Assembly (NCBI RefSeq): GCF_030116705.1
Contig: NZ_JAOTIK010000001.1
Location: forward strand, 5,484,501-5,548,500
Direction of reading: 5' to 3'
DNA length: 64,000 nt
DNA from: Streptomyces sp. ML-6
Lineage (GTDB): Bacteria; Actinomycetota; Actinomycetes; Streptomycetales; Streptomycetaceae
A model generated the notes under the pieces. That model saw only the letters and a program-made list of their open reading frames with translations. It made no database searches and was not told the DNA's origin. Each line of letters begins with the position of its first letter. Within the stretch, counting starts at the first letter, position 1. Positions 1 through 15,300 of the stretch are shown here, one piece after another. The position numbers and the translations under genes were made by a program.

Positions 1-1077
1 GCCGATCTGGACCACTTGAGCGCCCTGGCGGCCGCTGCCGCGATCCGCGCCGGAATCCCGTTCACGACCCGCCTCACCGCACACGACGGACTCCTGTCGC
101 TGCCCACCCTGGGCGCCCTGCGCACGACGTCCACCGCCCCCGTGTCCGTCGACGTCGCCTTCCGGGCCGGTGAACTGACGCTGCGTGAGGAGGGCGCGGC
201 CGTACCGCCCCTCGTCGCCCACCCGCAGCCGGACGGCGCGACCGGCTCGGCCGACCCGCGCTGGCTGCCGGTGCTCGCCCTGCCCGCCCTGCCGCACGGC
301 ATCGGCCCCGTGCCCCTGGACGACGTCGACCCCTACCGCACCGACGGCCGCGGACTCCAGCGGCACGGGCTGAGCGCCGCCACCCACATCGACGACCGCG
401 CACGCAAGTCCTGGGCCGAGTCCTGGGCCGGAGTGGCGCCCCTGCTCGGCATCGGCGGCGCACACCGCCTCACCGAAGCGGCGCTCCTGCTGCGCTGCCT
501 GGTCCCGCTCGGCCCGCCGCCCGGCTCCGGACCCGTCGGCGAGAGCGCGGCACACTGCAGCGGCACCAGACGGGAGGCGTTCGGCGCCGTCCTCAGCAGC
601 AGACCCGCCACCCCCGCCTACTTCGCCTCCACCCTCGTCCACGAACTCCAGCACACCAAACTGGCCGCGCTCTGCGCCCTCGTACCGCTGCACCACGAGG
701 ACGCCGAGCCGCGCCACTTCGCCCCCTGGCGATCCGACCCCCGGCCCTTCGACGGCCTCCTGCAAGGCGCCTACTCGCACCTCGCGCTCGCCGACTACTG
801 GCAGCGGTTCGCGCTCGGCGCCCGGCGCGTCACCCACCGGGACCTGGCCTGGGCCGAGCACGCCCGCTGCCGCGAACAGGTCGGAGCCGTACTGCCCGTA
901 CTGGCCGGCTCGGCGGCACTCACCCGGGAGGGCCGGGTACTGGTCAACGAGATGATCACGCTCTACCACCGTCTGGACGATTGTCCGCCCCCTGCGGGGC
1001 ACCTCGCGCGCGCGGAGGCGTACGTGGCCACCGCCAAGGTGATATGGCAGCAGAGGAACGGCCCGCGAAGGCCGTGA
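1..1077 (+). CDS. fxsB: FxsB-like peptide-maturation protein, C-terminal HExxH domain (5' end outside window)
   Basis: The frame is open from base 1, so only the C-terminal part (about 358 residues) is seen. It carries an intact HExxH motif (VHELQH, 637-654), followed by a PRPFDGLLQGAYSHLA stretch typical of the HEXXH-motif domain found at the end of FxsB proteins of FxSxx-COOH systems. FxsB joins a radical SAM/SPASM peptide maturase to this domain; the free-standing relatives are thought to be iron/2-oxoglutarate peptide hydroxylases. The radical SAM part and the FxSxx-COOH precursor (fxsA) should lie left of the window. The next gene is an fxsT-type gene, which supports the assignment. It could instead be a stand-alone HEXXH protein; the truncated view cannot decide this. 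Confidence 0.75.
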   Translation, partial: ADLDHLSALAAAAAIRAGIPFTTRLTAHDGLLSLPTLGALRTTSTAPVSVDVAFRAGELTLREEGAAVPPLVAHPQPDGATGSADPRWLPVLALPALPHGIGPVPLDDVDPYRTDGRGLQRHGLSAATHIDDRARKSWAESWAGVAPLLGIGGAHRLTEAALLLRCLVPLGPPPGSGPVGESAAHCSGTRREAFGAVLSSRPATPAYFASTLVHELQHTKLAALCALVPLHHEDAEPRHFAPWRSDPRPFDGLLQGAYSHLALADYWQRFALGARRVTHRDLAWAEHARCREQVGAVLPVLAGSAALTREGRVLVNEMITLYHRLDDCPPPAGHLARAEAYVATAKVIWQQRNGPRRP

Positions 1078-1094
1078 GGGACCCCGGGATCGTC

Positions 1095-1118
1095 CACCGG
1101 AGCGACCGTGCTCCGGTG
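1095..1118 (+). terminator. 9-bp perfect stem between fxsB and fxsT
   Basis: CACCGGAGC and GCTCCGGTG flank a 6-base loop, 17 bases after the fxsB stop. There is no T-tract, so it may act as a terminator, an attenuator or a regulator site. A TTGACA hexamer (1123-1128) follows and could be part of an fxsT promoter, but no convincing -10 is seen. Confidence 0.4.
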
Positions 1119-1158
1119 TATGTTGACAAGGCTCGGATCGAGGCAGGGAGACGGCTGA

Positions 1159-4152
1159 ATGCCCGGAACGCGTAAGCAAGTTGGAGCAACCGGGGGGCAA
1201 ACCGTCACCATCAGTTTCGCCGGTTTCAACCGTGCCTGGGCGGCGTGGATCGGGGACCGGCTGGAGCGGCGCGGGGTGACGGTCGTCCAGCAGCGCTGGG
1301 ACCCGCCGGTGGAGATGCCGCTGGAGGAGTCGCTGCGCGACCTGACGCTCTCCCGCGGCCAGGTCCTGGTGATCCTCAGCGACTGGTACTTCCAACTCGG
1401 CCCGCGCGGCCACGAGGAGTGGAACAGGGCGCTGCGCGAGGTCGTCGCCCCCGACCCGGACCGCTTCGCCGCCGTCTGCGTCACCACCTCCGCCCTGCCC
1501 GGCGCCACCTCGGCCCTCGGCGCGGCCGACCTGACCAACGTCGGCGCCGAGGAGGCCGAGCGCCGGCTCCTGGTCCGGCTGGGCCTGCCCACCGACCCGC
1601 TGCCCGAGGCGGCCGAGGCCCGGCCGGGGCCCCGGTACCCGGCCGACACCCCCGAGGTGTGGGGCGGGGTGCCGCGCCGCAACACCCGGTTCACCGGCCG
1701 CGACGAGCTGCTCGCCACGACGTACGAGGCCCTCCAGGACGCGGGTTCCGGCGCCGGGGTCGTGACCCTGCACGGCATGTCCGGCGTCGGCAAGACGCAG
1801 CTGGCGGCGGAGTACGTCTACCGGTTCGGCTCCGAGTACGACGTCGTGTGGTGGGTGCCCGCCGACCGCCGCGCCCTCTACCGCCAGAAGCTCGCCGAAC
1901 TCGCCCCCGAACTGGGCCTGGCCACCGGCGTCGAGTACGGGGAGCGGCTGCGGGCGGTGCGCGACGCGCTGCGCCGCGGCGAACCGCACTCCCACTGGCT
2001 CCTGGTCCTGGACGGCGCGGACGAACCCGAACACATCTGGGACCTGGTCCCCACCGGTCCCGGGCACGTGCTGATCACCTCCCGCAACCCGGAGTGGAGC
2101 GAGCACAACAGCAACCTCGTCGAGGTCCCGGTCTACGACCGCGACGAGTCGGTCGCCTTCATCCGCCGCCGCGCACCACGCCTGACCCCGAACGAGGCCC
2201 ACCAGCTCGCCGAGGCCCTCGAAGACCTCCCGCTGCTCCTCGACCAGACCGCCGGCTGGCTCAACGACTCCGACATGTCCGTCGAGGAGTACATCGAACT
2301 CCTCGAAGGCGGCATCGACCAGGACGTCGTCAAGGTCTCCGCCGACTTCCCGCTCGCCTTCCAGACCGCCTGGTCGATACTGCTGAACAAGCTCAAGGAG
2401 ACCGTCCCGGAATCCGTCGACCTGCTGCGGCTGTGCAGCTTCTTCGCCCCCGGCTCCATCCCCGTGCGGCTGCTGCGGGAGATGCCCCCCGGCAACCTGC
2501 CGGAACAGCTCTCCGGCCTGATGAACGACCCGCTGCTGTGGAACAGGGCGATCGGCCAGCTCCGCCAGTACTCCGTGGTCCGCCTGGAGTCCCACGAGAC
2601 GGCCGGCGAGGAGGCCTCGTCCGGCGAATCGCTCTACATGCACCGCATGGTCCACCAGATCGTCGGCAAGGACATGCCGGAACGGGACCGCGACGAGTTC
2701 ATCGACGTGGTCCGCGGGGCCCTCGCCGCCGCGGACCCCGGCCGCCCCCACGACACCCGGCTGTGGCCCTCCTACGCCGAGATCACCCCGCACCTGAAGT
2801 GGGCCGACGTACTGATGAGCACCGACCCGGCCGTGCACGGCCTGGTGCTCAACTGCCTGCGCTACATGTACCTCTCCGGCGAGTACCGGGCCGGCATCAA
2901 GCTGGGCGAACGCGCGATGAAGGCCTGGCGGGAACTCCTCGGCGAGAACCACCCCCGGGTCTGGGACCTCAGCCACCACTACGCGAACCTGCTGCGGGCC
3001 GTCGGCGACTACGCCGGGACGGAAGCCATCGAACGCGCCGCCGTGGACCACCTGCGCGAGGAACGCGGCGCCCAGGACCTGGAGCACCTGCGCGCCGCCG
3101 GCGGCCTCGCCGCCGACCTGCGGGGCCTGGGCCGGTACGACGAGGCCCTGGAGATGTCGACCCGGATCCTGGCCTCCTACCGCGAACTGCTCGGCGACCA
3201 GGACTCGCGCACGCTCAGCGCGCAGAACAACCTCGCCATGTCGCTCCGACTGCTCGGCCGCTACGAGGAATCCCTGGATCTGAACCGGCGGACCCTGGAG
3301 GCCCGGCGGCAGGTTCTGCGCCCCCGGCACAGCTGGACGCTCTACTCCGAGATCCACTACGCCACCGACCTGCGGCTGCTCGGCCGGTACGGCGAGGCCC
3401 TGTCGCTCCAGAACCAGAGCGTCCGGGTGCACCGCCTGGTCATGGGCCAGGACAACCCGCAGACCCTGCGCGCCGAGCACAACCTCGCGCTGTGCCAGTA
3501 CCGTTCGGGGGAACGCTCCAAGGCCGCGGCCCTGTTCACCCGGGTCCTCGAACGGTCCGAGCGGGTGCTCGGCGAGAACGACCCGCTGACGATGATGTTC
3601 GCGGCCAGCCAGAGCTTCTTCGCCCGGGAGCACGCCGACATCGACCAGGCCAGGGCCATAAGCGAGAAGGTGGTCGACGGCTACGCGGACATGCTCGGCG
3701 AGGAACACCCGTACGTGGCGGGAACCCGCGCCAACCACGCCCTGATCCTGCGCAACGTGGGCGAACGCGACCAGGCCCACGCCCTCCTGGAACAGGCGCT
3801 CGCCGACATGACCCGGGCCGTGGGCGAGCACCACCCCTGGACCCTGGGCTGCGCGATCAACGCCTCCGCGCTGCGCAACCTGGTGGGCGACCCGGAGTCC
3901 GCGGCCGCGCTGACGGACGCCGTCGGCACGAGGGCCACCGAGGTGCTCGGCCGGCTCCACCCGCTGACCCTGTCCGCCCGGATCGCGCACGCCGCGGACC
4001 TGCGCGGCCTGCGCGAACGGCAGCGCGCGGACAAGGTCGAGACGGAGGCGCTGGAGGACCTGAGGGCGACCCTGGGCGACCAGCACGTCCACACCGTCTC
4101 GGCCCGCTCCCGCAACCGCCCGTACTGGGACTTCGAGCCGCAGATGATCTGA
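1159..4152 (+). CDS. fxsT: FxsT: TIR - NB-ARC - TPR signalling protein
   Basis: A 997-residue STAND protein of the FxSxx-COOH system TPR family. Residues about 17-150 form a TIR-like domain starting TISFAGFNRAW; the HEEW motif is where the catalytic Glu of NADase TIR domains would fall. The NB-ARC ATPase follows, with Walker A GMSGVGKT at about 206-213, Walker B LLVLD at 281-285 and a GxP-like LEDLPLLLDQ motif. From about residue 570 to 950 there are repeated TPR units (HPRVWDLSHHYANLLR, NNLAMSLRLLGRY). It ends in YWDFEPQMI, a tail shared with the paralogue ending at 12265. The ATG has AGGGAG eight bases upstream. The likely job is a sensor/switch: repeats recognise a ligand, NB-ARC oligomerises, TIR is the effector. 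That is inferred from STAND biology. Confidence 0.85.
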   Translation: MPGTRKQVGATGGQTVTISFAGFNRAWAAWIGDRLERRGVTVVQQRWDPPVEMPLEESLRDLTLSRGQVLVILSDWYFQLGPRGHEEWNRALREVVAPDPDRFAAVCVTTSALPGATSALGAADLTNVGAEEAERRLLVRLGLPTDPLPEAAEARPGPRYPADTPEVWGGVPRRNTRFTGRDELLATTYEALQDAGSGAGVVTLHGMSGVGKTQLAAEYVYRFGSEYDVVWWVPADRRALYRQKLAELAPELGLATGVEYGERLRAVRDALRRGEPHSHWLLVLDGADEPEHIWDLVPTGPGHVLITSRNPEWSEHNSNLVEVPVYDRDESVAFIRRRAPRLTPNEAHQLAEALEDLPLLLDQTAGWLNDSDMSVEEYIELLEGGIDQDVVKVSADFPLAFQTAWSILLNKLKETVPESVDLLRLCSFFAPGSIPVRLLREMPPGNLPEQLSGLMNDPLLWNRAIGQLRQYSVVRLESHETAGEEASSGESLYMHRMVHQIVGKDMPERDRDEFIDVVRGALAAADPGRPHDTRLWPSYAEITPHLKWADVLMSTDPAVHGLVLNCLRYMYLSGEYRAGIKLGERAMKAWRELLGENHPRVWDLSHHYANLLRAVGDYAGTEAIERAAVDHLREERGAQDLEHLRAAGGLAADLRGLGRYDEALEMSTRILASYRELLGDQDSRTLSAQNNLAMSLRLLGRYEESLDLNRRTLEARRQVLRPRHSWTLYSEIHYATDLRLLGRYGEALSLQNQSVRVHRLVMGQDNPQTLRAEHNLALCQYRSGERSKAAALFTRVLERSERVLGENDPLTMMFAASQSFFAREHADIDQARAISEKVVDGYADMLGEEHPYVAGTRANHALILRNVGERDQAHALLEQALADMTRAVGEHHPWTLGCAINASALRNLVGDPESAAALTDAVGTRATEVLGRLHPLTLSARIAHAADLRGLRERQRADKVETEALEDLRATLGDQHVHTVSARSRNRPYWDFEPQMI

Positions 4153-4237
4153 TCCGTTTCGAGGAAAGCGGCTCAACAAGTGAATGACCGTCAGTATCCT
4201 TGCTCAGCACGTGTGTTGAGATGGATCGGGGGAGCGA

Positions 4238-4651
4238 ATGGCGGTCGTCGTCGGATCTGCGGCACCGGGGGAGGACGGCCCGATCCCGGTCGTCGTGGAC
4301 ATCGAAACCTTCGCGGCCGACCCGGAACCGGCCGGGGCCGACGAGTCCTTCTACAGCCCGGAGGAGACCCGGGGCGGCGCGGACGCCGCCCGGCGCGCCC
4401 TGAGCAGTGCCGGTGATCTGTACGGCGACGGGCTCGACCTGGCGCGACGTTGCGCCGCCCAGGCGATGCGCAGACTCGGCGACCTGGGCGAGGGGATGCG
4501 CCCCGACGAGATCGAACTCCAGGTCGGGATCACCTTCGAGGCCGGTATGGCGGCCGTGGTGAAGGCCGGCGCCGAAGCGCAGATCCAGGTCACCTTCCGC
4601 TGGCAGCCCGGCAACGAGGGACGGGCCACCGCCGTGGCCACTCCCTCATGA
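4238..4651 (+). CDS. Trypco1-like small protein (CU044_2847 family)
   Basis: A 137-residue protein whose C-terminal half (IELQVGITFEAGMAAVVKAG, then AQIQVTFRW) matches the compact beta-rich CU044_2847 / trypsin-co-occurring domain. In other actinobacteria this domain accompanies trypsin-like or CHAT proteases and NTPase conflict systems; here a CHAT protease gene lies three genes downstream. GGGGGAG precedes the ATG. The stop overlaps the next start (ATGA), so it is translationally coupled to the AAA ATPase. The function is unknown; a role as adaptor that links protease and ATPase is inference. Confidence 0.72.
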   Translation: MAVVVGSAAPGEDGPIPVVVDIETFAADPEPAGADESFYSPEETRGGADAARRALSSAGDLYGDGLDLARRCAAQAMRRLGDLGEGMRPDEIELQVGITFEAGMAAVVKAGAEAQIQVTFRWQPGNEGRATAVATPS

Positions 4652-5607
4652 GCGGGACGCCACCCCCGCCCGCCATCCCGCCCGGCCGGATGCCGATCCT
4701 CCCGTACAGCCGGATCGTCGGACAGGGCGAACTCAAACTGGCCCTGGAACTCAACTTCGTCTCCCCGAGGATCGGCGGCGTGCTGATCGCCGGGCAGCGG
4801 GGCACCGCCAAGTCCACCGTCGTCCGCGCCTTCGCCCTCATGTCCGGCGGCGAACTGCCCGTCACCCTCCCGATCAACGCGACCGACGACCGGGTCGTCG
4901 GCGGCTGGGAGCTGGACTCGCTGATGCGGGGCGTGGCGAAGCCGCAGCCCGGACTGCTCGAAGAGGCCGACGGAAAAGGGCTGCTGTACATCGACGAGGT
5001 CAACCTGCTGGACGACCACCTCGTCAACATCATCCTGGACGTCGTCTCCACCGGTGTGCTGTCCATCCAGCGGGAGGGCATCGACGTGTCCAGACAGCTG
5101 TCGTTCGGACTGGTCGGCACCATGAACCCCGAGGAGGGCAGCCTGCGCGCCCAACTGCTCGACCGGTTCGGGCTGATGGTGTCGGCGACCGAACTGGACC
5201 TCGACGAACGCCGGCGGACGATCACGACCGTGCTCGCCTTCGAGGAGGAGCTGGAGAACGAGGACTCCGCCTGGCTGCGCGCCGCACAGGAGGAGAACGA
5301 CGCCCTGCGCGCCGCGCTCCTGGCGGCGCGGGACCGGCTCGGGGACGTCGGGATCGACGAGGACGTGAGCGGGCTCTGCGCCGAAGCGGCGCAACGGGTC
5401 GGCGCGGTCGGGCAGCGCGGCGACCTCCTCGTGGCGAGGACCGCCCGCGCACTGGCCGCCCGGGACGGGGACCCACGGGTCGGCCCGGACCACGTCCGCC
5501 GGGTGCTGCCGCTCGCCCTGCGCCACCGCAGACCGGACTCCGCCCACGGCGCCGCCCTCGTCTGGGGGCCGGACGACGACGACCGCGTCGCCGACCTCTT
5601 CGACTGA
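4648..5607 (+). CDS. BchI/ChlI-like AAA+ ATPase (MoxR/Mg-chelatase type)
   Basis: A 319-residue AAA+ ATPase. Walker A is GQRGTAKST (residues 49-57), Walker B is LLYIDEVNLL (Asp at 116), followed by the Mg-chelatase I-type GTMNPEEGSLRAQLLDRFGL segment. The start is the ATG in the ATGA overlap with the preceding gene; an in-frame extension further upstream is not needed. The following gene encodes a D-subunit-like VWA protein, so the two probably form an I/D-type remodelling complex. No porphyrin gene is nearby, so magnesium chelation is unlikely; pairs of this kind next to CHAT and TIR genes are known from NTP-dependent conflict systems of multicellular bacteria. Confidence 0.88.
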   Translation: MSGTPPPPAIPPGRMPILPYSRIVGQGELKLALELNFVSPRIGGVLIAGQRGTAKSTVVRAFALMSGGELPVTLPINATDDRVVGGWELDSLMRGVAKPQPGLLEEADGKGLLYIDEVNLLDDHLVNIILDVVSTGVLSIQREGIDVSRQLSFGLVGTMNPEEGSLRAQLLDRFGLMVSATELDLDERRRTITTVLAFEEELENEDSAWLRAAQEENDALRAALLAARDRLGDVGIDEDVSGLCAEAAQRVGAVGQRGDLLVARTARALAARDGDPRVGPDHVRRVLPLALRHRRPDSAHGAALVWGPDDDDRVADLFD

Positions 5608-5614
5608 GCCGCCG

Positions 5615-7471
5615 ATGCCCGCACCCGTGCCCCGGCCCTCGCCCGCCGCGGATCCCGACGGACCGCCCCGGCGGCTGCTCACCGCACTGGCCTGCGCCGC
5701 CGTCGAACCGGGACTGTCCGGGGTGCTGCTGTTCGACCTCCCCGCCCCGCACCTCGCGGCCGTCGCCGCCGCGTTCGACCGGCTGCTCGCCGGACCCGCC
5801 GGCCCGCCCGTGCCCCGCACCACCCTCACCGCGGCCACCACGGACGAGGACCTGTGGTTACGGCCCCGGGTGCGCCGCGGCCCGCACGGCATCGACTTCG
5901 CCCTGGACCCCGGACCGCTCACCGAGCCGGTGCCCGGCCCCTCCCTCGTCGTCGTCCCCGACCTCGCCAGGCTCAGCGTGCCGGGGAAACGGGCCGCCGT
6001 GCAGCTCCTCGGCGCCGACGTCGCCACCGTCGAACACGCCGGACTGAGCCGCCGCTGGCGGCCGGAGGCCCGCTGGCTGGCCGCCTGCCGCACCGAGGAC
6101 GTCGAACGGGTCCCCCCGCACCTCCTGGACCGCTTCCCGCTCCGCCTCACCCTCCCGGACCTGTGCACCCGGCCGGGCGACACCCCGCTCGGCCCCCTCC
6201 CCACCGCCTGGAGCACGACCCTGCACCACTCCCGCGCCCCCGGCCCCAGGCCGCCCCTCCACCCCGACGCCGACTTCGCGTCCCGGGTGCTGGAACTCCT
6301 CGACGACCAGGACGGCACCGGGCAGCGCAGACCCCTCGCCCTGGCCCGGACCGCCCGCGCCCTGGCCCGGCTCGACGGCGCCGGACGGCTCACGGCCGGG
6401 CACGCCGAGGCGGCCGCCCGCCTCTTCCGGCTGCGCGGCGCCCGGCACCCGTCCCTCGAACCCCCGCCCGAGCCCGGCACCGCGGCCACCGCCCGGAGCG
6501 CTCCCCGCATCCTCCCCGAACCCCGCCCCGGCACCGACCGGCACCCCGCACCCGGCACACCCGTCCTGGAACCCGGGCCCGCCGAACACATCGGGTCGGC
6601 CCGCGCGGCCGGACCCTGGCCGGCCGCCGACAACCCGTACCCGGAGGACGCCCCGGGACCACCGCCGGAGGACACCGCCCTGCGCACCCCGGACCGGCGC
6701 GCCACCGGCCCCCGGGCCGCACGCGGCCCCGTCGTCGGGGTGCGCCCCGCCCGGGACCTGTGGGACCTCGCACCCGTGCGCACGGCCATGGAGGCGGCCA
6801 AGTACCGGGCGGTGCGGGAGGGCGGCGACCGCCTGGTGATCCTGCCGCGCGACCTGCGCGGATACGTCCGGGCCCCGGAACCCGTCCGGATGCTCACCCT
6901 CGTCCTGGACCACACCTGCCGCGAGGACTGGGACTGGCACCCGGCGCTCGAACCGTTCCTGCAATGGGCCTACGTCACCCGCGCCCCGGTGCACGTGGTC
7001 GAGATCGGCGGACGCGGGGCCCCGAACGAGGTACGGGCCGAGTCCTTCACCGCGCCGTCCACCCGCTCCCCGCGCATCGCCGCCGCCCTCGACCGGCCGC
7101 CCGGCCGGGCCACCCCGCTCGCCCACGGACTGGAACTGGCCGAACAGACCCTGCGCCGGGCCTTCCAGCACCACCGCGCCGGCCTGGTGGAAGCCCTGCT
7201 GGTCGTGGTGACCGACGGGCGCGGCAACGTCCCGCTCGCCGCGAGCCACCTCGGCCGGGCCGGGCGCGGCGCCGTGGGCCGCACCGGCATCGACGACGCG
7301 CTCGCCGCGGCCGGCCGGATCAGCGGCATGGACCGGACCCGGCTGCACATCCTGGTCGTCGACCCGGGCCGACAGCCGTACCCGGAACTCCCGCACCTGC
7401 TGGCCGAGGCCCTCGACGGCAGGGTGGTCACCGGCAGGCCGGAACCCGAGGCGGCCGGTCATGGGCGGTGA
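5615..7471 (+). CDS. BchD-like VWA protein, partner of the AAA ATPase (has a TTA codon)
   Basis: A 618-residue protein. The N-terminal ~280 residues resemble the inactive AAA part of chelatase D subunits, then comes a Pro-rich linker (about 285-385), then a VWA domain. The metal site is partly degenerate: the first motif reads LVLDHTCRED (Asp432) instead of DxSxS, while the Thr of ATPLAHGL and Asp534 of VVTDGRG are kept. Codon 82 (5858-5860) is TTA, the rare leucine codon read by the bldA tRNA, which would tie expression to development or stationary phase. It starts seven bases after the ATPase stop and overlaps the CHAT gene by 11 bases. Confidence 0.85.
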   Translation: MPAPVPRPSPAADPDGPPRRLLTALACAAVEPGLSGVLLFDLPAPHLAAVAAAFDRLLAGPAGPPVPRTTLTAATTDEDLWLRPRVRRGPHGIDFALDPGPLTEPVPGPSLVVVPDLARLSVPGKRAAVQLLGADVATVEHAGLSRRWRPEARWLAACRTEDVERVPPHLLDRFPLRLTLPDLCTRPGDTPLGPLPTAWSTTLHHSRAPGPRPPLHPDADFASRVLELLDDQDGTGQRRPLALARTARALARLDGAGRLTAGHAEAAARLFRLRGARHPSLEPPPEPGTAATARSAPRILPEPRPGTDRHPAPGTPVLEPGPAEHIGSARAAGPWPAADNPYPEDAPGPPPEDTALRTPDRRATGPRAARGPVVGVRPARDLWDLAPVRTAMEAAKYRAVREGGDRLVILPRDLRGYVRAPEPVRMLTLVLDHTCREDWDWHPALEPFLQWAYVTRAPVHVVEIGGRGAPNEVRAESFTAPSTRSPRIAAALDRPPGRATPLAHGLELAEQTLRRAFQHHRAGLVEALLVVVTDGRGNVPLAASHLGRAGRGAVGRTGIDDALAAAGRISGMDRTRLHILVVDPGRQPYPELPHLLAEALDGRVVTGRPEPEAAGHGR

Positions 7472-8801
7472 ATCCGCGGGCCTGCGCCGCCTGTTGGAGA
7501 ACTCCGTGGCCACCGGCCGACGCCTGGCCAGGACCCCCGTGCCCGCCGGGGTGCGCACCGGACTGCGCGAACGGCTCGGGCTCACGGAGGCCGACGCCGA
7601 CAGCCGGCCCCCGCCGCACACCGCCCGGATCACGGTCGTCCCGCACCACGAAGGCCACGTCGGAGTCCCGGCGTTCGGGGTCAGCGCCTGGTGCGAAGGC
7701 ATCCCCCGGCTCCCGTACACCACCGGACCCACCCAACTGCGCCCCGCCGACATCGGCCTGGGCAACGCGCTGGGCGACGGCCCCGCCCCCTCCCAACTGC
7801 TCCGCGACATCCGGCACTGGTCCCGCAATCAGCGACGGCTCGCCGCCTGGATCAACCACGCCCGCGCGGTGCACGGCGACGAGCTCCGGATCACCGTCCA
7901 CGACGACACCGGCTACGAGATCCCCTGGGAGGCGTTCTGGCTGCCGGCCGACCCGGCGAACGGGCTGGACGAAGGGCTCCTCGGCGCCCTGGTCCCGGTC
8001 ACCCGGTGGCTCACCATCCGCAGCGCCGACCTGGTGCTGCCCGAGGCGTCCGTGGCGGCTACGGGCGATGTGCTCGGCTACTACTTCCACGCCGCGCCCC
8101 CGGCCCGCCCGCACCGCGACGGAGTACGCCGCATCCATGACATGCGGGCCGACATGACGGTCTTCCAGGGATACGCACACCGCCCGCACGTGACGATCGA
8201 CGACTTCCTCGACGAACTCGACGCGTGTCCGACCGATCCCGTCGGCCTCGTCTACATGGCGGCCCACGGCACCTACGACGACCGGGTCGACGCGCTCACC
8301 CTCGCCGAGGTGACCTGGGCCGAGTACGACGACCGCCCGATGACGGTGCTCGACAAGGACCACTCGATGGTCTGCCTCAACGCCTGCCACTCGGCCAGGT
8401 TCGTCCGCAACACCGGACTGGGGGAGACGGACCTGCGGGGTTTCACCGAACTCTTCCTCCGCAAGGGCGCCGGGGGCTGCGTCGTCGCGGCCGGACAGGT
8501 CGGCGACAGCGAGGCGCGCGAACTCATCCGGCAGCTCGTCGACACCCTGGCGGCCGAACCCTGGCGGCCGGTCGCCGACTCGCTGCGCCTGTTCCGGGCC
8601 CGCGCCCTGGACGAGTTCGGCCCCTTGACGAACCTGCCGCGCGCCCGGCACGAAGGACGGCGGAACGTGGACGGCCAGCGGCCCGTCCTGCGCCTGCTGT
8701 ACAGCCTCATGTTCCAGTACTACGGGCATCCGCTCAGCACGCTCAGCCTGAGCGGCCCACGCCCCGGCGGGACGGCGCACGGGGAAGGGGACGCACGGTG
8801 A
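7461..8801 (+). CDS. CHAT-domain caspase-like protease
   Basis: A 446-residue protein. The C-terminal half has the caspase-type dyad of CHAT proteases: His269 in VYMAAHGTYDD and Cys309 in CLNACHSARF, followed by GGCVVAAGQVGDSEA, the usual strand after the catalytic Cys. The N-terminal half (to about 210) has no recognised domain, though RITVHDDTGYEIPWEAFWLP resembles the segment in front of many CHAT domains. The ATG overlaps the end of the VWA gene, and its TGA overlaps the next GTG (GTGA). In this context it is the most likely proteolytic effector or processing enzyme of the cluster. Confidence 0.88.
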   Translation: MGGESAGLRRLLENSVATGRRLARTPVPAGVRTGLRERLGLTEADADSRPPPHTARITVVPHHEGHVGVPAFGVSAWCEGIPRLPYTTGPTQLRPADIGLGNALGDGPAPSQLLRDIRHWSRNQRRLAAWINHARAVHGDELRITVHDDTGYEIPWEAFWLPADPANGLDEGLLGALVPVTRWLTIRSADLVLPEASVAATGDVLGYYFHAAPPARPHRDGVRRIHDMRADMTVFQGYAHRPHVTIDDFLDELDACPTDPVGLVYMAAHGTYDDRVDALTLAEVTWAEYDDRPMTVLDKDHSMVCLNACHSARFVRNTGLGETDLRGFTELFLRKGAGGCVVAAGQVGDSEARELIRQLVDTLAAEPWRPVADSLRLFRARALDEFGPLTNLPRARHEGRRNVDGQRPVLRLLYSLMFQYYGHPLSTLSLSGPRPGGTAHGEGDAR

Positions 8802-11800
8802 ACGGCGACGATCCTGCCCTGCTCATCGAACCCGTCGTCAGCCGGCCCCGCGAGGCCGAGGCCGGCTGCGCTTACCTCGTCACCGTCGACCTGCGCGGTC
8901 CGCTCGGGCCGCGGGGCGAGGAGGACCCGGAAGCCTGGCCGTACCAGGACGAGGAGCTGACCTTCACCGTCGCACTGGACGGGGGACGGCACTTCGTCTG
9001 CGAGGTGCTCGACGACCCCGCCCTCGTGCTGCACCGCTACGGGGGTACGTACGGCCCGGCCCGGTTCGTCGTCACGGCGGGCCCGGCCACCGGGCCCGCC
9101 GAACTGTGGCTGACCCTCACCAACCAGTGGGGGATGCCGGTCCGCAAGGCCGCCCTGCCCTGCCGGATCGTCCCGTCGGCGGAGGACGGTGCGCAGCTGC
9201 CGGTTCCGGTCGCCGGATACGTACCCGACCGGTCGGCCGTCCCCGCGCCGCACGGACCGGCCGGGTGGCCGGAGGAGGACGCGGCGGACGAGGCGCCGGA
9301 CAGGGCGACGGACGGGACGGCGGATGCGAACCGGTCCACGGACACCGGGACGGACACCGAAGACCTCGCGCCCCTCGAAGCGTTCCCGGTCCCGCGCACC
9401 ACACCGGGCCCGGTGGACCACGTCACGATCAGTTTCGCCGGTTTCAACCGTGCCTGGGCGGTGTGGATCGGGGACCGGCTGGAGCGGCGCGGGGTGACGG
9501 TCGTCCAGCAGCGCTGGGACCCGCCGGTGGAGGTGCCGCTGAAGGAGTCGCTGCGCGATCTGACGCTCTCTCCGGGACTGGTCCTCGCGGTCCTCGGGGA
9601 CTGGTACTTCCGGCTCGGCGAGCGCGGCCACGAGGAGTGGAACAGGGCGCTGCGCGAGGTCGTCGCCCCCGTCCCCGACCGCTTCGCCGCCGTGCGCGTC
9701 ACCACCTCCGCCCTGCCCGGCGCCACCTCGGCCCTCGGCGCGGCCGACCTGACCAACGTCGGTGCCGAGGAGGCCGAGCGCCGGCTCCTGGTCCGGCTGG
9801 GCCTGCCCACCGACCCGCTGCCCGAGGCGGCCGAGGCCCGGCCGGGGCCCCGGTATCCGGCCGACACCCCCGAGGTGTGGGGCGGGGTCCCGCGCCGCAA
9901 CACCCGGTTCACCGGCCGCGACGAGCTGCTCGCCACGACGTACGAGGCACTGCACGGGGCCCGCCCCGGCGCTGGTGTCGTGACCCTGCACGGCATGCCG
10001 GGCGTGGGCAAGACGCAGCTGGCGGCGGAGTACGTCCACCGGTTCGGCTCCGAGTACGACGTCGTGTGGTGGGTACCGGCCGACCGCCGGTCCCTCTACC
10101 GGCAGAAGCTGGCCGAGCTGGCATCCGTACTGGGCCTGCCCACGGGGGCCGAGTACGGGGAGCGGCTGCGGGCGGTGCGCGACGCGCTGCGCCGCGGCGA
10201 ACCGCACTCCCACTGGCTCCTGGTCCTGGACGGCGCGGACGAACCCGAGCACATCTGGGACCTGGTCCCCACCGGTCCCGGGCACGTGCTGATCACCTCC
10301 CGCAACCCGGGCTGGAGCGAGCACAACAGCAACCTCGTCGAGGTCCCGGTCTACGGACGTGAGGAGTCGGTCGCCTTCATCCAACGTCGGGCACCGCGCC
10401 TGACCCCGTACGAATCCGACCGGCTCGCCGAGGCCCTCGAAGACCTCCCGCTGCTCCTCGACCAGACCGCCGGCTGGCTCAACGACTCCGACATGTCCGT
10501 CGAGGAGTACATCGGACTTCTCGACGGCGGTAACGGCCAGGACGTCGTCAAGGTCTCCGCCGACTTCCCGCAGACCTTCCGGACCGCCTGGTCGATCCTG
10601 CTGAACAAGCTCAAGGAGACCGCCCCGGAGTCCGTCGGCCTGCTGCGGCTGTGCGGCTTCTTCGCCCCCCATGCCATCCCGCTGAACCTGCTGCACCGGG
10701 TCGCCTGGGGCACCGTCGGCGGCCTGGAGGCGCTCGCGGACCCCGACGTGTTCGACCGTGCGCTCCAGCAGTTGCTGCGCTACTCGGTCGTCAGGCTGGA
10801 GGCCACGACCCTCCCGCTCGGGGGAACGGCGGACCCGTCCGGGGCCCTCCACATCCACCGCATGATCCACCGCATGGTGCGGGACGAACTGACGGTGGCC
10901 GACCACGCGACCTGTGCCGCGGCGGCCCGCGGTGCGCTGGCCGCCGTCGCCAGGGGCCGGCCCTCCGACGTCCGGGCGTGGCCCGTGTACGCCACGCTCA
11001 CCCCGCACCTGAAATGGGCGGAGGTGCTGGAGAGCACCCAACCCGCGGTGCAGGACCTCGTCCTGGACTGCCTGCGCCACATGTACCTCTCCGGCGAGTA
11101 CGGCAGCGGCGTCCGGCTCGCCGGACCGGCCATGACCTCCTGGCGGACCCTGCTCGGCGCGACCCACCCCAGGATCTGGGACCTCGGCCACCACTACGCC
11201 AATCTGCTCCGCGCCCTGGGCGACTACACGACAAGCGCATGCGTGGAGCGCGAGGCGGCCGACTACCTGGAGGCCGAACGCGGCGGGCACGACCTGGCGC
11301 ACCTGCGCGCCGCCGGCGGTCTCGCCGCCGATCTGCGGGGCCTGGGCCGGTACGACGAGGCGCTGCGGCTCTCCACCTCGATCCGGGACCGCTACCTCGA
11401 CGTCCTCGGCCAACAGGACCACCGCACCCTGAACGCGGACAACAACCTCGCGGTGTCGCTGCGGTTGCTGGGCCGCTACGGCGAGGCGCTGGAACAGGAC
11501 TGGCACACCCTGGACCTGCGGCGTTCCGTGCTGGGCGGGCAGGCCCCCGCAACCTTGTACTCGGAACTCAACTGCGCCATCGACCTGCGGCTGCTGGGAC
11601 ACCACCGCGAGGCCGAGGAGGTCCTGGAACAGACGGTCCGCGGGCACCTGGAGGCGATCGGCGCCAACAACCCGCAGACCCTGCGCGCCCGGCACAACCT
11701 CGCCCTGTGCCGGTACTCCGCGGGTGATGCGGGCGCCGCCCGGTCCGGCCTCGCCCGGGTCCGGCGGGACTGCCTGCGGCTCCTCGGCGAGCACCACCCG

Positions 11801-12265
11801 CTCACCCTGCTGATCACGGCGAGCGCGGCCTGCGCGGAGCGGCGGGCGGGGGACCCGGACCGGGCGCTGACGCTGCACGAGCAGGTGGTGGCGGGCTACC
11901 GGTCGATGCTGGGTCCCGAACACCCGTACACCATCGGGACGGAGGGGAACCTCGGGCTGATGCGCTGGACGCTGGAGGAGCGGGACACCGCCGGTTACGA
12001 GATCGAGCGGGCCCGCTCCCTGATGTCCCGCGCGGTGGGCCCCGGGCATCCCTGGGCGCTCGGCTGCGCGTTCAACGCGGTGGTCGTCCGGGCCCGGAAC
12101 GGGCGGACCGACGAGGCGCACGAGCTGGTCCGGGCGAACGGCCCGCGGGCGACGGCCCTGTTGGGGACGGACCACCCGCTCGCCACGGCCTACCGGCGGG
12201 CGGAGGAGGAACCGGCGCGTGCCGGGCACCTGGAGTTCTGGGACTTCGAGCCCATGATCGTCTGA
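8798..12265 (+). CDS. fxsT: Second FxsT-like protein: beta-rich domain - TIR - NB-ARC - TPR
   Basis: A 1155-residue STAND protein. The GTG start lies in the GTGA overlap with the CHAT gene, behind GGGGAAGGGG; the open frame extends upstream only as a shadow of the CHAT gene. Residues 1-130 are a beta-rich domain absent from FxsT at 1159-4152, followed by an Asp/Thr-rich linker. TIR starts at about 209 with VTISFAGFNRAW, NB-ARC Walker A GMPGVGKT is at about 399-406, and TPRs run to the end, which reads FWDFEPMIV. DNA of the TIR/NB-ARC part is almost identical to the first copy, while the TPR part is clearly diverged, as expected if the repeats recognise different ligands. Confidence 0.86.
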   Translation: MNGDDPALLIEPVVSRPREAEAGCAYLVTVDLRGPLGPRGEEDPEAWPYQDEELTFTVALDGGRHFVCEVLDDPALVLHRYGGTYGPARFVVTAGPATGPAELWLTLTNQWGMPVRKAALPCRIVPSAEDGAQLPVPVAGYVPDRSAVPAPHGPAGWPEEDAADEAPDRATDGTADANRSTDTGTDTEDLAPLEAFPVPRTTPGPVDHVTISFAGFNRAWAVWIGDRLERRGVTVVQQRWDPPVEVPLKESLRDLTLSPGLVLAVLGDWYFRLGERGHEEWNRALREVVAPVPDRFAAVRVTTSALPGATSALGAADLTNVGAEEAERRLLVRLGLPTDPLPEAAEARPGPRYPADTPEVWGGVPRRNTRFTGRDELLATTYEALHGARPGAGVVTLHGMPGVGKTQLAAEYVHRFGSEYDVVWWVPADRRSLYRQKLAELASVLGLPTGAEYGERLRAVRDALRRGEPHSHWLLVLDGADEPEHIWDLVPTGPGHVLITSRNPGWSEHNSNLVEVPVYGREESVAFIQRRAPRLTPYESDRLAEALEDLPLLLDQTAGWLNDSDMSVEEYIGLLDGGNGQDVVKVSADFPQTFRTAWSILLNKLKETAPESVGLLRLCGFFAPHAIPLNLLHRVAWGTVGGLEALADPDVFDRALQQLLRYSVVRLEATTLPLGGTADPSGALHIHRMIHRMVRDELTVADHATCAAAARGALAAVARGRPSDVRAWPVYATLTPHLKWAEVLESTQPAVQDLVLDCLRHMYLSGEYGSGVRLAGPAMTSWRTLLGATHPRIWDLGHHYANLLRALGDYTTSACVEREAADYLEAERGGHDLAHLRAAGGLAADLRGLGRYDEALRLSTSIRDRYLDVLGQQDHRTLNADNNLAVSLRLLGRYGEALEQDWHTLDLRRSVLGGQAPATLYSELNCAIDLRLLGHHREAEEVLEQTVRGHLEAIGANNPQTLRARHNLALCRYSAGDAGAARSGLARVRRDCLRLLGEHHPLTLLITASAACAERRAGDPDRALTLHEQVVAGYRSMLGPEHPYTIGTEGNLGLMRWTLEERDTAGYEIERARSLMSRAVGPGHPWALGCAFNAVVVRARNGRTDEAHELVRANGPRATALLGTDHPLATAYRRAEEEPARAGHLEFWDFEPMIV

Positions 12266-12384: not shown

Positions 12385-15300
12385 TCAGGCCTCGAAGACC
12401 TCGGCGACCAGCTGGGCCTGCTCGGCCTGGTGGCGCTTGGCCGAGCCGACCGCCGGGGACGAGCTGTGCGGGCGCGAGATGCGGCGCAGGCGCTCACCGT
12501 GCGGGACGTCGGCACCGACGGCCAGGTCCAGGTGGTCGATCAGGTTCAGGGCGATGAACGGCCAGGCACCCTGGTTGGCGGGCTCCTCCTGGGTCCAGAG
12601 GTACTTCTCGGCGTTCGGGTACTTGGCGATCTCGGCCTGGATCTCGGCACCCGGCAGCGGGTACAGGCGCTCCAGACGGATGATCGCGGTGTCCGTGACG
12701 CCGCGCTTGGCGCGCTCGGCCTCCAGGTCGTAGTAGACCTTGCCGGCGCAGAAGACGACCTTGCGGACGTCGGCCGGGTTCACCGAGTCGTCGCCGATCA
12801 CCGGGCGGAAGCCGCCGCTGGTGAACTCCTCCATCTTCGACGCGGCCGCCTTGAGGCGGAGCATCGACTTCGGGGTGAAGACGATCAGCGGCTTGTGGTG
12901 CGGGTTGTGCACCTGCCACCGCAGGAGGTGGAAGTAGTTCGACGGCAGGGTCGGCATGGCGACCGTCATGTTGTTCTGCGCGCACAGCGTGAGGAAGCGC
13001 TCCGGGCGGGCGGACGAGTGGTCCGGGCCCTGGCCCTCGTAGCCGTGCGGCAGCAGCAGCGTGACGCCGGAGGTCTGGCCCCACTTCTGCTCGGCCGAGG
13101 AGATGAACTCGTCGACGACGGTCTGCGCGCCGTTGACGAAGTCACCGAACTGGGCCTCCCAGATGACCAGCGACTCGGGACGGGCCAGCGAGTAGCCGTA
13201 CTCGAAGCCCATCGCCGCGTACTCGCTGAGCAGCGAGTCGTAGACGTTGTAACGGGCCTGGTCGTCGGAGAGGTAGAGCAGCGGGGTGTAGTCCTCGCCG
13301 GTCACCTGGTCGACGAGGACCGCGTGGCGCTGGCCGAAGGTGCCGCGGCGGCTGTCCTGGCCGGCGAGCCGGACCGGGGTGCCCTCCATCAGCAGCGAGC
13401 CGATGGCCAGGGTCTCGCCCATGCCCCAGTCGATCGTGCCGTTCTCCACCGAGGCCGCGCGACGCTGCATCTGCGGCATCAGACGGGGGTGGACGGTGAT
13501 CCGGTCGGGGATGTTGACCTGGGACTCCGCGATGACCTTCACGACCTCCTGGGAGACCGCGGTGGTCACGGCGACCGGGAACTCCGGCTGGACCTCGGGG
13601 GAGTGCGCCGGGGCCGGCAGCGAGGTGGCCTCGCGGACCTCCGCGAAGACCTTCTCCAGCTGGCCCTGGAAGTCCTGGAGTGCCTGCTCGGCCTCTTCCA
13701 GCGTGATGTCGCCGCGACCGATGAGGGACTCGGTGTAGAGCTTGCGCACCGAGCGCTTCTTGTCGATCAGGGTGTACATCTGCGGGTTGGTGAACTCCGG
13801 GTTGTCGCCCTCGTTGTGACCGCGGCGGCGGTAGCAGATGAGGTCGATCACGACGTCCTTGTTGAACGCCTGCCGGAACTCGAAGGCCAGCCGCGCGACG
13901 CGGACGACGGCCTCGGGGTCGTCGCCGTTGACGTGGATGATCGGGGCCTCGATCATGCGCGCCACGTCGGTGGCGTACATCGAGGAGCGCGAGGACTCCG
14001 GGGCGGCGGTGAAGCCGACCTGGTTGTTGATCACCACGTGCACGGTGCCGCCGGTGCGGTAGCCGCGCAGCTGCGACATGTTGAGCGTCTCGGCGACGAC
14101 GCCCTGGCCCGCGAAGGCCGCGTCGCCGTGGAGCGCGACGGGCAGGACGGTGAAGTCCGTGCCGCCCTTGTTGATGATGTCCTGCTTGGCGCGGGCGATG
14201 CCCTCCAGGACCGGGTCGACCGCCTCCAGGTGCGAGGGGTTGGCGGCCAGCGAGACCTTGATCTGCTCGCCGTCCAGACCGGTGAAGGTGCCCTCGGCGC
14301 CCAGGTGGTACTTCACGTCGCCCGAGCCGTGCATCGACCGGGGGTCGAGGTTGCCCTCGAACTCGCGGAAGATCTGGGCGTACGACTTGCCGACGATGTT
14401 CGCCAGCACGTTCAGCCGGCCGCGGTGGGCCATGCCGATGACGACCTCGTCGAGGCGGGCCTCGGCGGCGGAGTCGATGACCGCGTCGAGCAGCGGGATG
14501 ACGGACTCGCCGCCCTCCAGCGAGAACCGCTTCTGGCCGACGTACTTGGTCTGCAGGAAGGTTTCGAACGCCTCGGCCGCGTTCAGCCGGCGCAGGATGC
14601 GCAGCTGCTCCTCGCGCTCGGGCTGCTGGGTGCGGGTGCGCTCCACCCGGTCCTGGATCCACTTGCGCTGCTTCGGATCCTGGATGTGCATGAACTCGAT
14701 GCCGGTGGTGCGGCAGTACGACTCGCGCAGCACGCCGAGGATGTCACGGAGCTTCATCATCGACTTGCCGGCGAAACCGCCGACCGCGAAGTCGCGCTCC
14801 AGGTCCCACAGGGTGAGGCCGTGCTCGGTGATGTCCAGGTCGGGGTGCTTGCGCTGGCGGTACTCCAGCGGGTCGGTGTCGGCCATGACGTGGCCGCGGA
14901 CCCGGTAGGAGTGGATCAGCTCGAAGACCCGCGCGGCCTTGGTCACGTCGTTGTCGTGCGAGGCGTCGATGTCCGTCAGCCAGCGGACCGGCTCGTACGG
15001 GATGCGCAGCGACTTGAAGATCTCGTCGTAGAACTCGTTCTCGCCGAGCAGCAGCTGGGAGACGATCCGCAGGAACTCGCCGGAGGCGGCGCCCTGGATG
15101 ACCCGGTGGTCGTACGTCGAGGTCAGCGTCATGACCTTGGAGATGCCCAGCTTGTTCAGGGTGTCCTGGGAGGTGCCCTGGAACTCGGCGGGGTAGTCCA
15201 TCGCGCCGACGCCCATGATGAGGCCCTGACCGGGCATCAGGCGGGGCACCGAGTGGACGGTGCCGATGCCGCCGGGGTTGGTCAGCGAGGCGGTGACGCC

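Follow-up and report, generated by a model that had tools for sequence, protein, structure and literature searches.

The 13-gene array

The stretch of DNA analyzed here (the window) covers 64,000 nucleotides of the 9.1-Mb genome of Streptomyces sp. ML-6 (G000:C1:5484501-5548500). Near its left end lies a five-gene block, Trypco1-AAA-vWA-CHAT-X-effector (4238-12265), a discrete and separable unit between the gene fxsT1 and an opposite-strand gene that we take from its sequence to be kgd. The 14 kb of DNA directly upstream was included as L004, in which base 14001 corresponds to window base 1, and gene calls on both stretches together gave 13 genes on one strand. In order, the first seven encode Trypco1, trypsin-VMAP-C, MoxR, a SAV_2336-type vWA protein, FxsA, FxsB and an HExxH protein, and the last six encode FxsT1, a second Trypco1, a MoxR/ChlI-clade AAA ATPase, a ChlD-like vWA protein, a CHAT protease and FxsT2, after which kgd follows. 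Successive genes are separated by -4, 88, 7, 311, 112, -4, 81, 85, -4, 7, -11 and -4 nucleotides (negative values denote overlaps). The original prediction described seven same-strand genes within 1-12265; all seven were identified by family matches, and with the upstream FxsA and FxsB genes they form one conserved array. Jointly with the reading of the right-hand block developed below, we consider that the array probably comprises two systems in tandem. The features of the window are as follows (E, expectation value).

1..1077, + strand: 3' part of the HExxH gene (alpha-ketoglutarate-type peptide beta-hydroxylase family), with its 5' end upstream of the window at L004:13632; TIGR04267, E 6.9e-50, 169.5 bits
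1159..4152, + strand: fxsT1, TIR-NB-ARC-TPR protein, 997 residues; NF040586, 892 bits (cut-off 300), TIR_2, NB-ARC and TPR
1203..4152, + strand: imperfect direct repeat, copy 1, the body of fxsT1; nucleotide comparison, sliding identity
4238..4651, + strand: Trypco1 protein, 137 residues, opening the add-on block; PF19493, E 3.6e-13, and NF041216, E 4.6e-13
4648..5607, + strand: MoxR/ChlI-clade AAA+ ATPase, 319 residues; AAA_5, E 3.4e-11, AAA_lid_2 and bpMoxR
5615..7471, + strand: ChlD-like vWA protein, 618 residues; TIGR02031, E 2.6e-17, at residues 444-603
7461..8801, + strand: CHAT caspase-like protease, 446 residues; PF12770, 35 bits (cut-off 24)
8798..12265, + strand: fxsT2, X-linker-TIR-NB-ARC-TPR protein, 1155 residues, the block effector; NF040586, 761 bits, and TIR_2 at residues 209-330
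8798..9202, + strand: X domain, about 135 residues, at the N-terminus of fxsT2; alignment of 22 sequences and a beta-sandwich model
9421..12265, + strand: imperfect direct repeat, copy 2, the body of fxsT2; nucleotide comparison, sliding identity

The left half of the array is a VMAP-ternary conflict system of known type, with an FxsA cyclophane-peptide cassette and a TIR-NB-ARC-TPR protein. Matches were obtained to Trypco1 (E 3.6e-18), Trypsin_2 (E 9.8e-17), VMAP-C (PF20028, E 2e-40) and, for the vWA protein, SAV_2336_NTERM (470 bits). VMAP-C, MoxR and vWA follow one another on L004 in the order required of VMAP-ternary systems, and the N-terminal motifs WLIYRG and PPWRDF of the left MoxR, read by eye in the translation, fit WxhapG and PsWRxa. 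The whole left half, from Trypco1, trypsin-VMAP-C, MoxR and vWA with TPR to FxsA, radical SAM, HExxH and TIR-NB-ARC-TPR, has the order described in the available part of Kaur et al. 2020 (PMC7159879; all references to this paper are to that part), where such an arrangement, including FxSxx peptide genes and, downstream of them, a TIR AP-ATPase, is set out. Twelve block loci were read over roughly 20 kb (L071, L074, L075 and L077-L085), and 9 of them had the full VMAP part upstream.

The FxSxx-COOH set is complete by family matches, with FxsB (radical SAM/SPASM; TIGR04269, 424.8 bits, cut-off 370), the HExxH protein and FxsT, and FxsA itself matches TIGR04268 (45.5 bits, cut-off 28). The FxsB residues C67/C71/C74 and the HExxH residues H337, E338 and H341 (28 aligned rows) are near-invariant, a term used throughout for conservation in at least 93% of rows. 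An upstream FxsA and a radical SAM gene had been expected, and both lie directly upstream; the literal F-x-S-x-x ending expected of the peptide did not hold, since FxsA (L004:11859-12068) ends in FTNAF, that is, F-x-N-x-x. Of the 36 readable rows with the block, 35 have the core WGF-x-N and one (L041) has S instead; L080 was dropped from this set as a spurious frame, and some rows represent the same genomes. Cyclophane radical SAM enzymes crosslink Phe with an Asn or Ser located two positions later (PMC11002830, available part), so the F-x-N core is chemically ordinary. The HExxH protein is taken as a peptidase that releases the peptide by Kaur et al. 2020 (PMC7159879), and the family is treated as peptide hydroxylases in the available text of PMC12636437 and by NCBIfam. 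The cassette shares a radical SAM cyclophane maturase, an HExxH enzyme and an FxSxx-family peptide with the alpha-ketoglutarate HExxH and cyclophane enzymes of ribosomally synthesized and post-translationally modified peptides (Morishita et al. 2024, as cited in the same text), but here the radical SAM and HExxH genes are separate, overlapping by 4 nucleotides, rather than fused, and the core is F-x-N in most block-bearing rows. An F-x-S core was seen in 4 of 11 block-less relatives. At L040 and L080 a radical SAM match lies on each side of fxsT1, with no HExxH match.

Separability and probable loss of the five-gene block

Searches found 56 CHAT relatives; 37 of them were aligned with the window protein, and 41 named loci were retrieved through these sequences; the co-occurrence tallies count only loci with a long enough flank under a fixed distance rule. 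In the 34 Streptomyces-type loci (33 titled Streptomyces and one Actinobacteria bacterium OK074), CHAT was accompanied by X in 34/34, ChlD in 33/33, ChlI in 28/28 and Trypco1 in 27/27, and was preceded by FxsT1 (27/27), radical SAM (27/27), HExxH (26/27) and FxsA (21/21). The possibility that the FxsT and CHAT/AAA/vWA genes are chance neighbours is thus set aside. The seven other named loci all carried X, ChlD, ChlI and Trypco1 (7/7 each), with FxsT1 in only one of them (Actinacidiphila, L047). The six actinobacterial loci lacking FxsT1 gave no match to FxsA, radical SAM or HExxH in the DNA fetched, the flanks being too short to exclude all three everywhere. All five block genes were also present in two plasmid-collection records, L099 (a 1.56-Mb plasmid record) and L100 (11.85 Mb, labelled plasmid and chromosome-sized), with no fxs match within 9 kb.

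Analysis of a genus draw of 295 Streptomyces genomes revealed FxsT-like proteins (E 1e-100 or better) in 244 and X in 17; the block is therefore the rarer part. The 16 loci from this draw other than the window's own, some from the same genomes as the named loci, carried X in 16/16, ChlD in 15/16, ChlI in 14/15 and Trypco1 in 14/15, together with FxsT1, radical SAM and FxsA (14/15 each) and HExxH (13/15). Across both sets (41 named and 16 genus-draw loci) the X frame overlapped or came after CHAT on the same strand in 57/57. The X-tagged protein was a second FxsT copy in 34 of 35 FxsT-type loci; in the remaining one (L039) the contig ends inside the gene.

Downstream of the block, kgd was present in 31 of 35 FxsT-type loci. 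For comparison, 12 genomes that lack X but have a close FxsT1, a subset of such genomes, were picked from the upper part of the FxsT list. In 11 of them kgd comes next after fxsT1 (no kgd was seen in L093), and none of the 12 contained remnants of Trypco1, ChlI, ChlD, CHAT or X. In L096 the interval between fxsT1 and kgd (7864-8709) encodes 264 residues that match the C-terminal end of the L029 FxsT2 with 83% identity, and since this FxsT2 remnant was left behind, the block has probably been lost there. The two direct-repeat copies in the window bracket Trypco1-ChlI-ChlD-CHAT-X and are 92% identical over 300 nucleotides from 1203 and 9421, a spacing of 8218; recombination between the two fxsT copies would be a plausible route of loss.

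The paired FxsT copies differ in how their two halves are related. Over residues 1-442 of FxsT1, the window's copies share a protein identity of 0.72-1.00 per 40-codon window (third-position identity 0.72-0.97), and past residue 442 protein identity falls to 0.33-0.75. Among 29 genomes, the FxsT1 closest to a genome's FxsT2 was its own in 16 for NB-ARC, 6 for TIR and 5 for TPR. In the NB-ARC tree FxsT2 of the window's clade lies near its own FxsT1 (93/78, weak), and the TPR halves form an FxsT2 clade (100/99). The L047 FxsT2 groups with its own FxsT1 for NB-ARC (100/100) and, though weakly supported, apart from it for TPR, and that of L020 lies near its own FxsT1 in both trees; the NB-ARC bootstrap had not settled, and these placements are among the branches listed. 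The trees and the identity pattern suggest that the signalling half has undergone gene conversion in certain lineages, though not in all. A third FxsT-like gene follows fxsT2 at L041:14422-17280.

These data bear on the view that all 13 genes form one peptide-controlled suicide device, in which modified FxsA would switch both FxsT proteins and CHAT would cut the peptide or FxsT2. The tight linkage in Streptomyces, the window's similar TIR-NB-ARC halves alongside divergent TPR halves, and the regular use of an FxsT copy as the X effector are all in its favour. However, we regard such a device as unlikely, given a block without FxsT1 in six of seven named loci outside Streptomyces, the two plasmid-collection records and the frequencies of 244 and 17 genomes. 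Neither half needs the other, because the block occurs without fxs matches and FxsT is far commoner than the block; what joins the halves in Streptomyces is the effector, an X-tagged second FxsT. The proposal in the original prediction of a peptide that either controls the CHAT protease or is its substrate is thus not supported as stated.

The CHAT module and the X domain

To place the ATPase of the block, its matches were compared with conflict-system and chelatase models. The AAA protein narrowly passes PF20030 bpMoxR (28.7 bits, cut-off 27), its P-loop is GQRGTAKS, and K57, D118, E119, N162 and R175 are near-invariant in 36 rows. The GXXXTAKS P-loop is shared with both the FtsH-type and the beta-propeller-type MoxR-vWA subsystems (PMC7159879), and together with the bpMoxR match it places the block by kinship among MoxR-vWA systems; the resemblance of the parts to nucleoside triphosphate-dependent conflict systems, noted earlier, is borne out. 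A very improbable alternative is that the AAA-vWA pair serves as a genuine chelatase-like chaperone assembling a cofactor, with CHAT, X and FxsT as passengers. The strongest NCBIfam matches of the pair are indeed chelatase subunits (for the AAA protein, TIGR02442 with E 1.2e-84), and the AAA protein passes PF01078 Mg_chelatase (21.1 bits, cut-off 20.3). Every NCBIfam chelatase match nevertheless falls under its equivalog cut-off, with 285 of 779 and 234 of 467 bits for the AAA protein (TIGR02442 and TIGR02030) and 63 of 500 bits for the vWA protein, while bpMoxR is a conflict-system model and CHAT and X accompany the pair across genera.

The ChlD-like protein carries a sequence resembling a metal ion-dependent adhesion site (MIDAS), D432-H-T-C with D534-G, near-invariant in 41 rows. 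The His/Cys dyad of the CHAT protein, reported as intact in the original prediction, proved invariant, H269/C309 being present in 38/38 aligned sequences. The structures nearest to the CHAT model (mean predicted local distance difference test score, pLDDT, 80) were the Csx29 TPR-CHAT protein and separase; Pfam found the CHAT domain only and no TPR in this protein. The TIR Glu preceding Trp, which we take to be the catalytic residue for NAD hydrolysis, is kept in 29/29 rows of FxsT1 and 30/35 rows of FxsT2.

The N-terminal X domain of FxsT2 has 10 invariant columns in 22 aligned sequences, no match in Pfam or NCBIfam, and an AlphaFold model of a beta-sandwich (pLDDT 92.4). Two X searches yielded 24 and 7 proteins, and a domain scan of 16 of these 31 plus four locus proteins recognised a domain in 17 of 20; P0061, P0073 and P0078 had no Pfam match. 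X was joined to TIR-NB-ARC-TPR, NACHT-HEAT-caspase, TPR-CHAT, trypsin, trypsin-EAD2, ResIII/EcoEI_R helicase, caspase-CHAT-NB-ARC, metallophosphatase-caspase, kinase, SIR2, AAA_35, TPR, VMAP-C, TIR, WD40 and GlgX, and, from the source name only, to PP2C. In the six actinobacterial loci lacking FxsT1 and the two plasmid-collection records, X is fused to effectors other than FxsT, and two loci with different partners, L045 (GlgX) and L052 (WD40), are sisters in a 38-locus module tree (support 1.000). Fusions of X to GlgX, of the glycogen debranching type, occur at L045, L048 and L100 and in proteins P0057-P0063 and P0087.

This constancy of AAA, vWA, CHAT and X while the partners of X change points to X as a recruiting tag and CHAT as a gate. 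A quite improbable alternative is that X senses a foreign or self ligand and that ligand binding by the X protein unleashes CHAT as the final killer. A beta-sandwich is a kind of fold common among binding domains, and reversed sensor and effector roles have been proposed for VMAP systems (PMC10907252, available part). However, a sensor would be expected to vary, whereas X is well conserved and it is the attached domains, including effector-typical enzymes, that vary.

A proposed CHAT module with exchangeable effectors

We therefore favour as probable the reading of the right block as a CHAT module with an exchangeable X-tagged effector under AAA-vWA gating. It builds on gene content and order, separability, the different effectors on the same core and the conserved catalytic motifs. 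X would act as a docking tag that places the effector under CHAT, and the AAA-vWA pair would keep the complex off. An infection-related trigger would lead the pair to remodel the complex, letting CHAT release or activate the effector; both steps are modelled by analogy on CHAT proteases and on the MoxR-vWA scheme of Kaur et al. 2020 (PMC7159879). Since the effector in this genome is a second FxsT copy, we propose that a further input, gated by the protease, is added to the TIR-NB-ARC output of the peptide system. The kinds of effector make cell suicide a plausible result. More tentatively, the block may represent a further class of AAA-vWA conflict system, with CHAT as a protease gate and an X tag that brings exchangeable effectors to it (TIR, SIR2, caspase, helicase, kinase, GlgX with or without catalytic residues, or the VMAP of another system). 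In Streptomyces it may have captured a copy of the cyclophane-peptide executor, with gene conversion keeping the TIR-NB-ARC halves co-assembling, so that peptide and protease signals meet in one death complex.

Several observations weigh against the gated-effector reading. The putative MIDAS is D-H-T-C, different from the canonical D-x-S-x-S; no Pfam vWA model matched the ChlD-like protein, and its C-terminal vWA part was recognised by TIGR02031 alone, below cut-off. Among the ten proteins scanned, PADLOC gave no match for CHAT, vWA, Trypco1 or either FxsT, and partial AAA, protease or radical SAM matches for four. Genome context for X proteins covers the fetched loci and not the database-only matches, and in genome G049 (L086) the stretch read contains CHAT-X but no detectable Trypco1, ChlI or ChlD. 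For two GlgX fusions, the match to GlgX begins at residues 142-147, near where X ends, so cutting within a long flexible linker cannot be the general case. Four of eight GlgX-type X proteins (P0058, P0062, L045 and the divergent P0087) lack a residue that we take to be catalytic in GlgX, and some effectors may thus be decoys.

Comparison with known systems revealed partial likenesses. Craspase (Cas7-11 with Csx29 TPR-CHAT), the protease of which is gated by a partner, shares the CHAT fold and provides the closest solved structures, but the block CHAT protein has no TPR match and its gate would be AAA-vWA. Compared with VMAP-ternary systems (PMC7159879), the right block has no VMAP-C in its five window proteins (Pfam scans) and an ATPase of another MoxR-clade type, the N-terminus of which, MSGTPPPPAIPPGRMPILPYSRIVGQ, contains no Trp and so lacks the N-terminal Trp motifs of their MoxR; its Trypco1 is paired with CHAT in place of trypsin, and the fusion partner of its effector is X, not the vWA protein. 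According to Kaur et al. 2020 (PMC7159879), a C-terminal beta-propeller is strictly present on the vWA protein of the beta-propeller-type subsystem and conventional effectors are absent, whereas the block vWA protein has no propeller match at E 0.1, and CHAT and the X-effector fill the third place. The literature searched held no description of the Trypco1-AAA-vWA-CHAT-X cassette (subscription papers, supplements and Kaur's source tables lay outside the search), and the texts searched held none of the N-terminal X domain of fxsT2.

If the favoured reading is correct, one small domain marks the effectors of a protease-gated immune or death device, and searching with X would list candidate effectors, including unannotated ones; ATPase-gated proteolysis by CHAT, a caspase- and separase-like fold, would also extend in bacteria beyond CRISPR. 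The analysis separates the role of the modified peptide from that of the protease, and genome pairs that differ in whether this site contains the block offer a natural test of what the block adds to the FxsA system.

Two further loci bring the module next to VMAP genes. At L046 (11118-14678) X is directly fused with VMAP-C; MoxR and a SAV_2336-like protein come next, and here the block plugs into a VMAP-ternary system. At L086 CHAT and an X-trypsin-EAD2 protein lie near both ends of a chromosome-sized contig, and this CHAT-X pair adjoins a VMAP-M2/MoxR/vWA set and a TIR protein.

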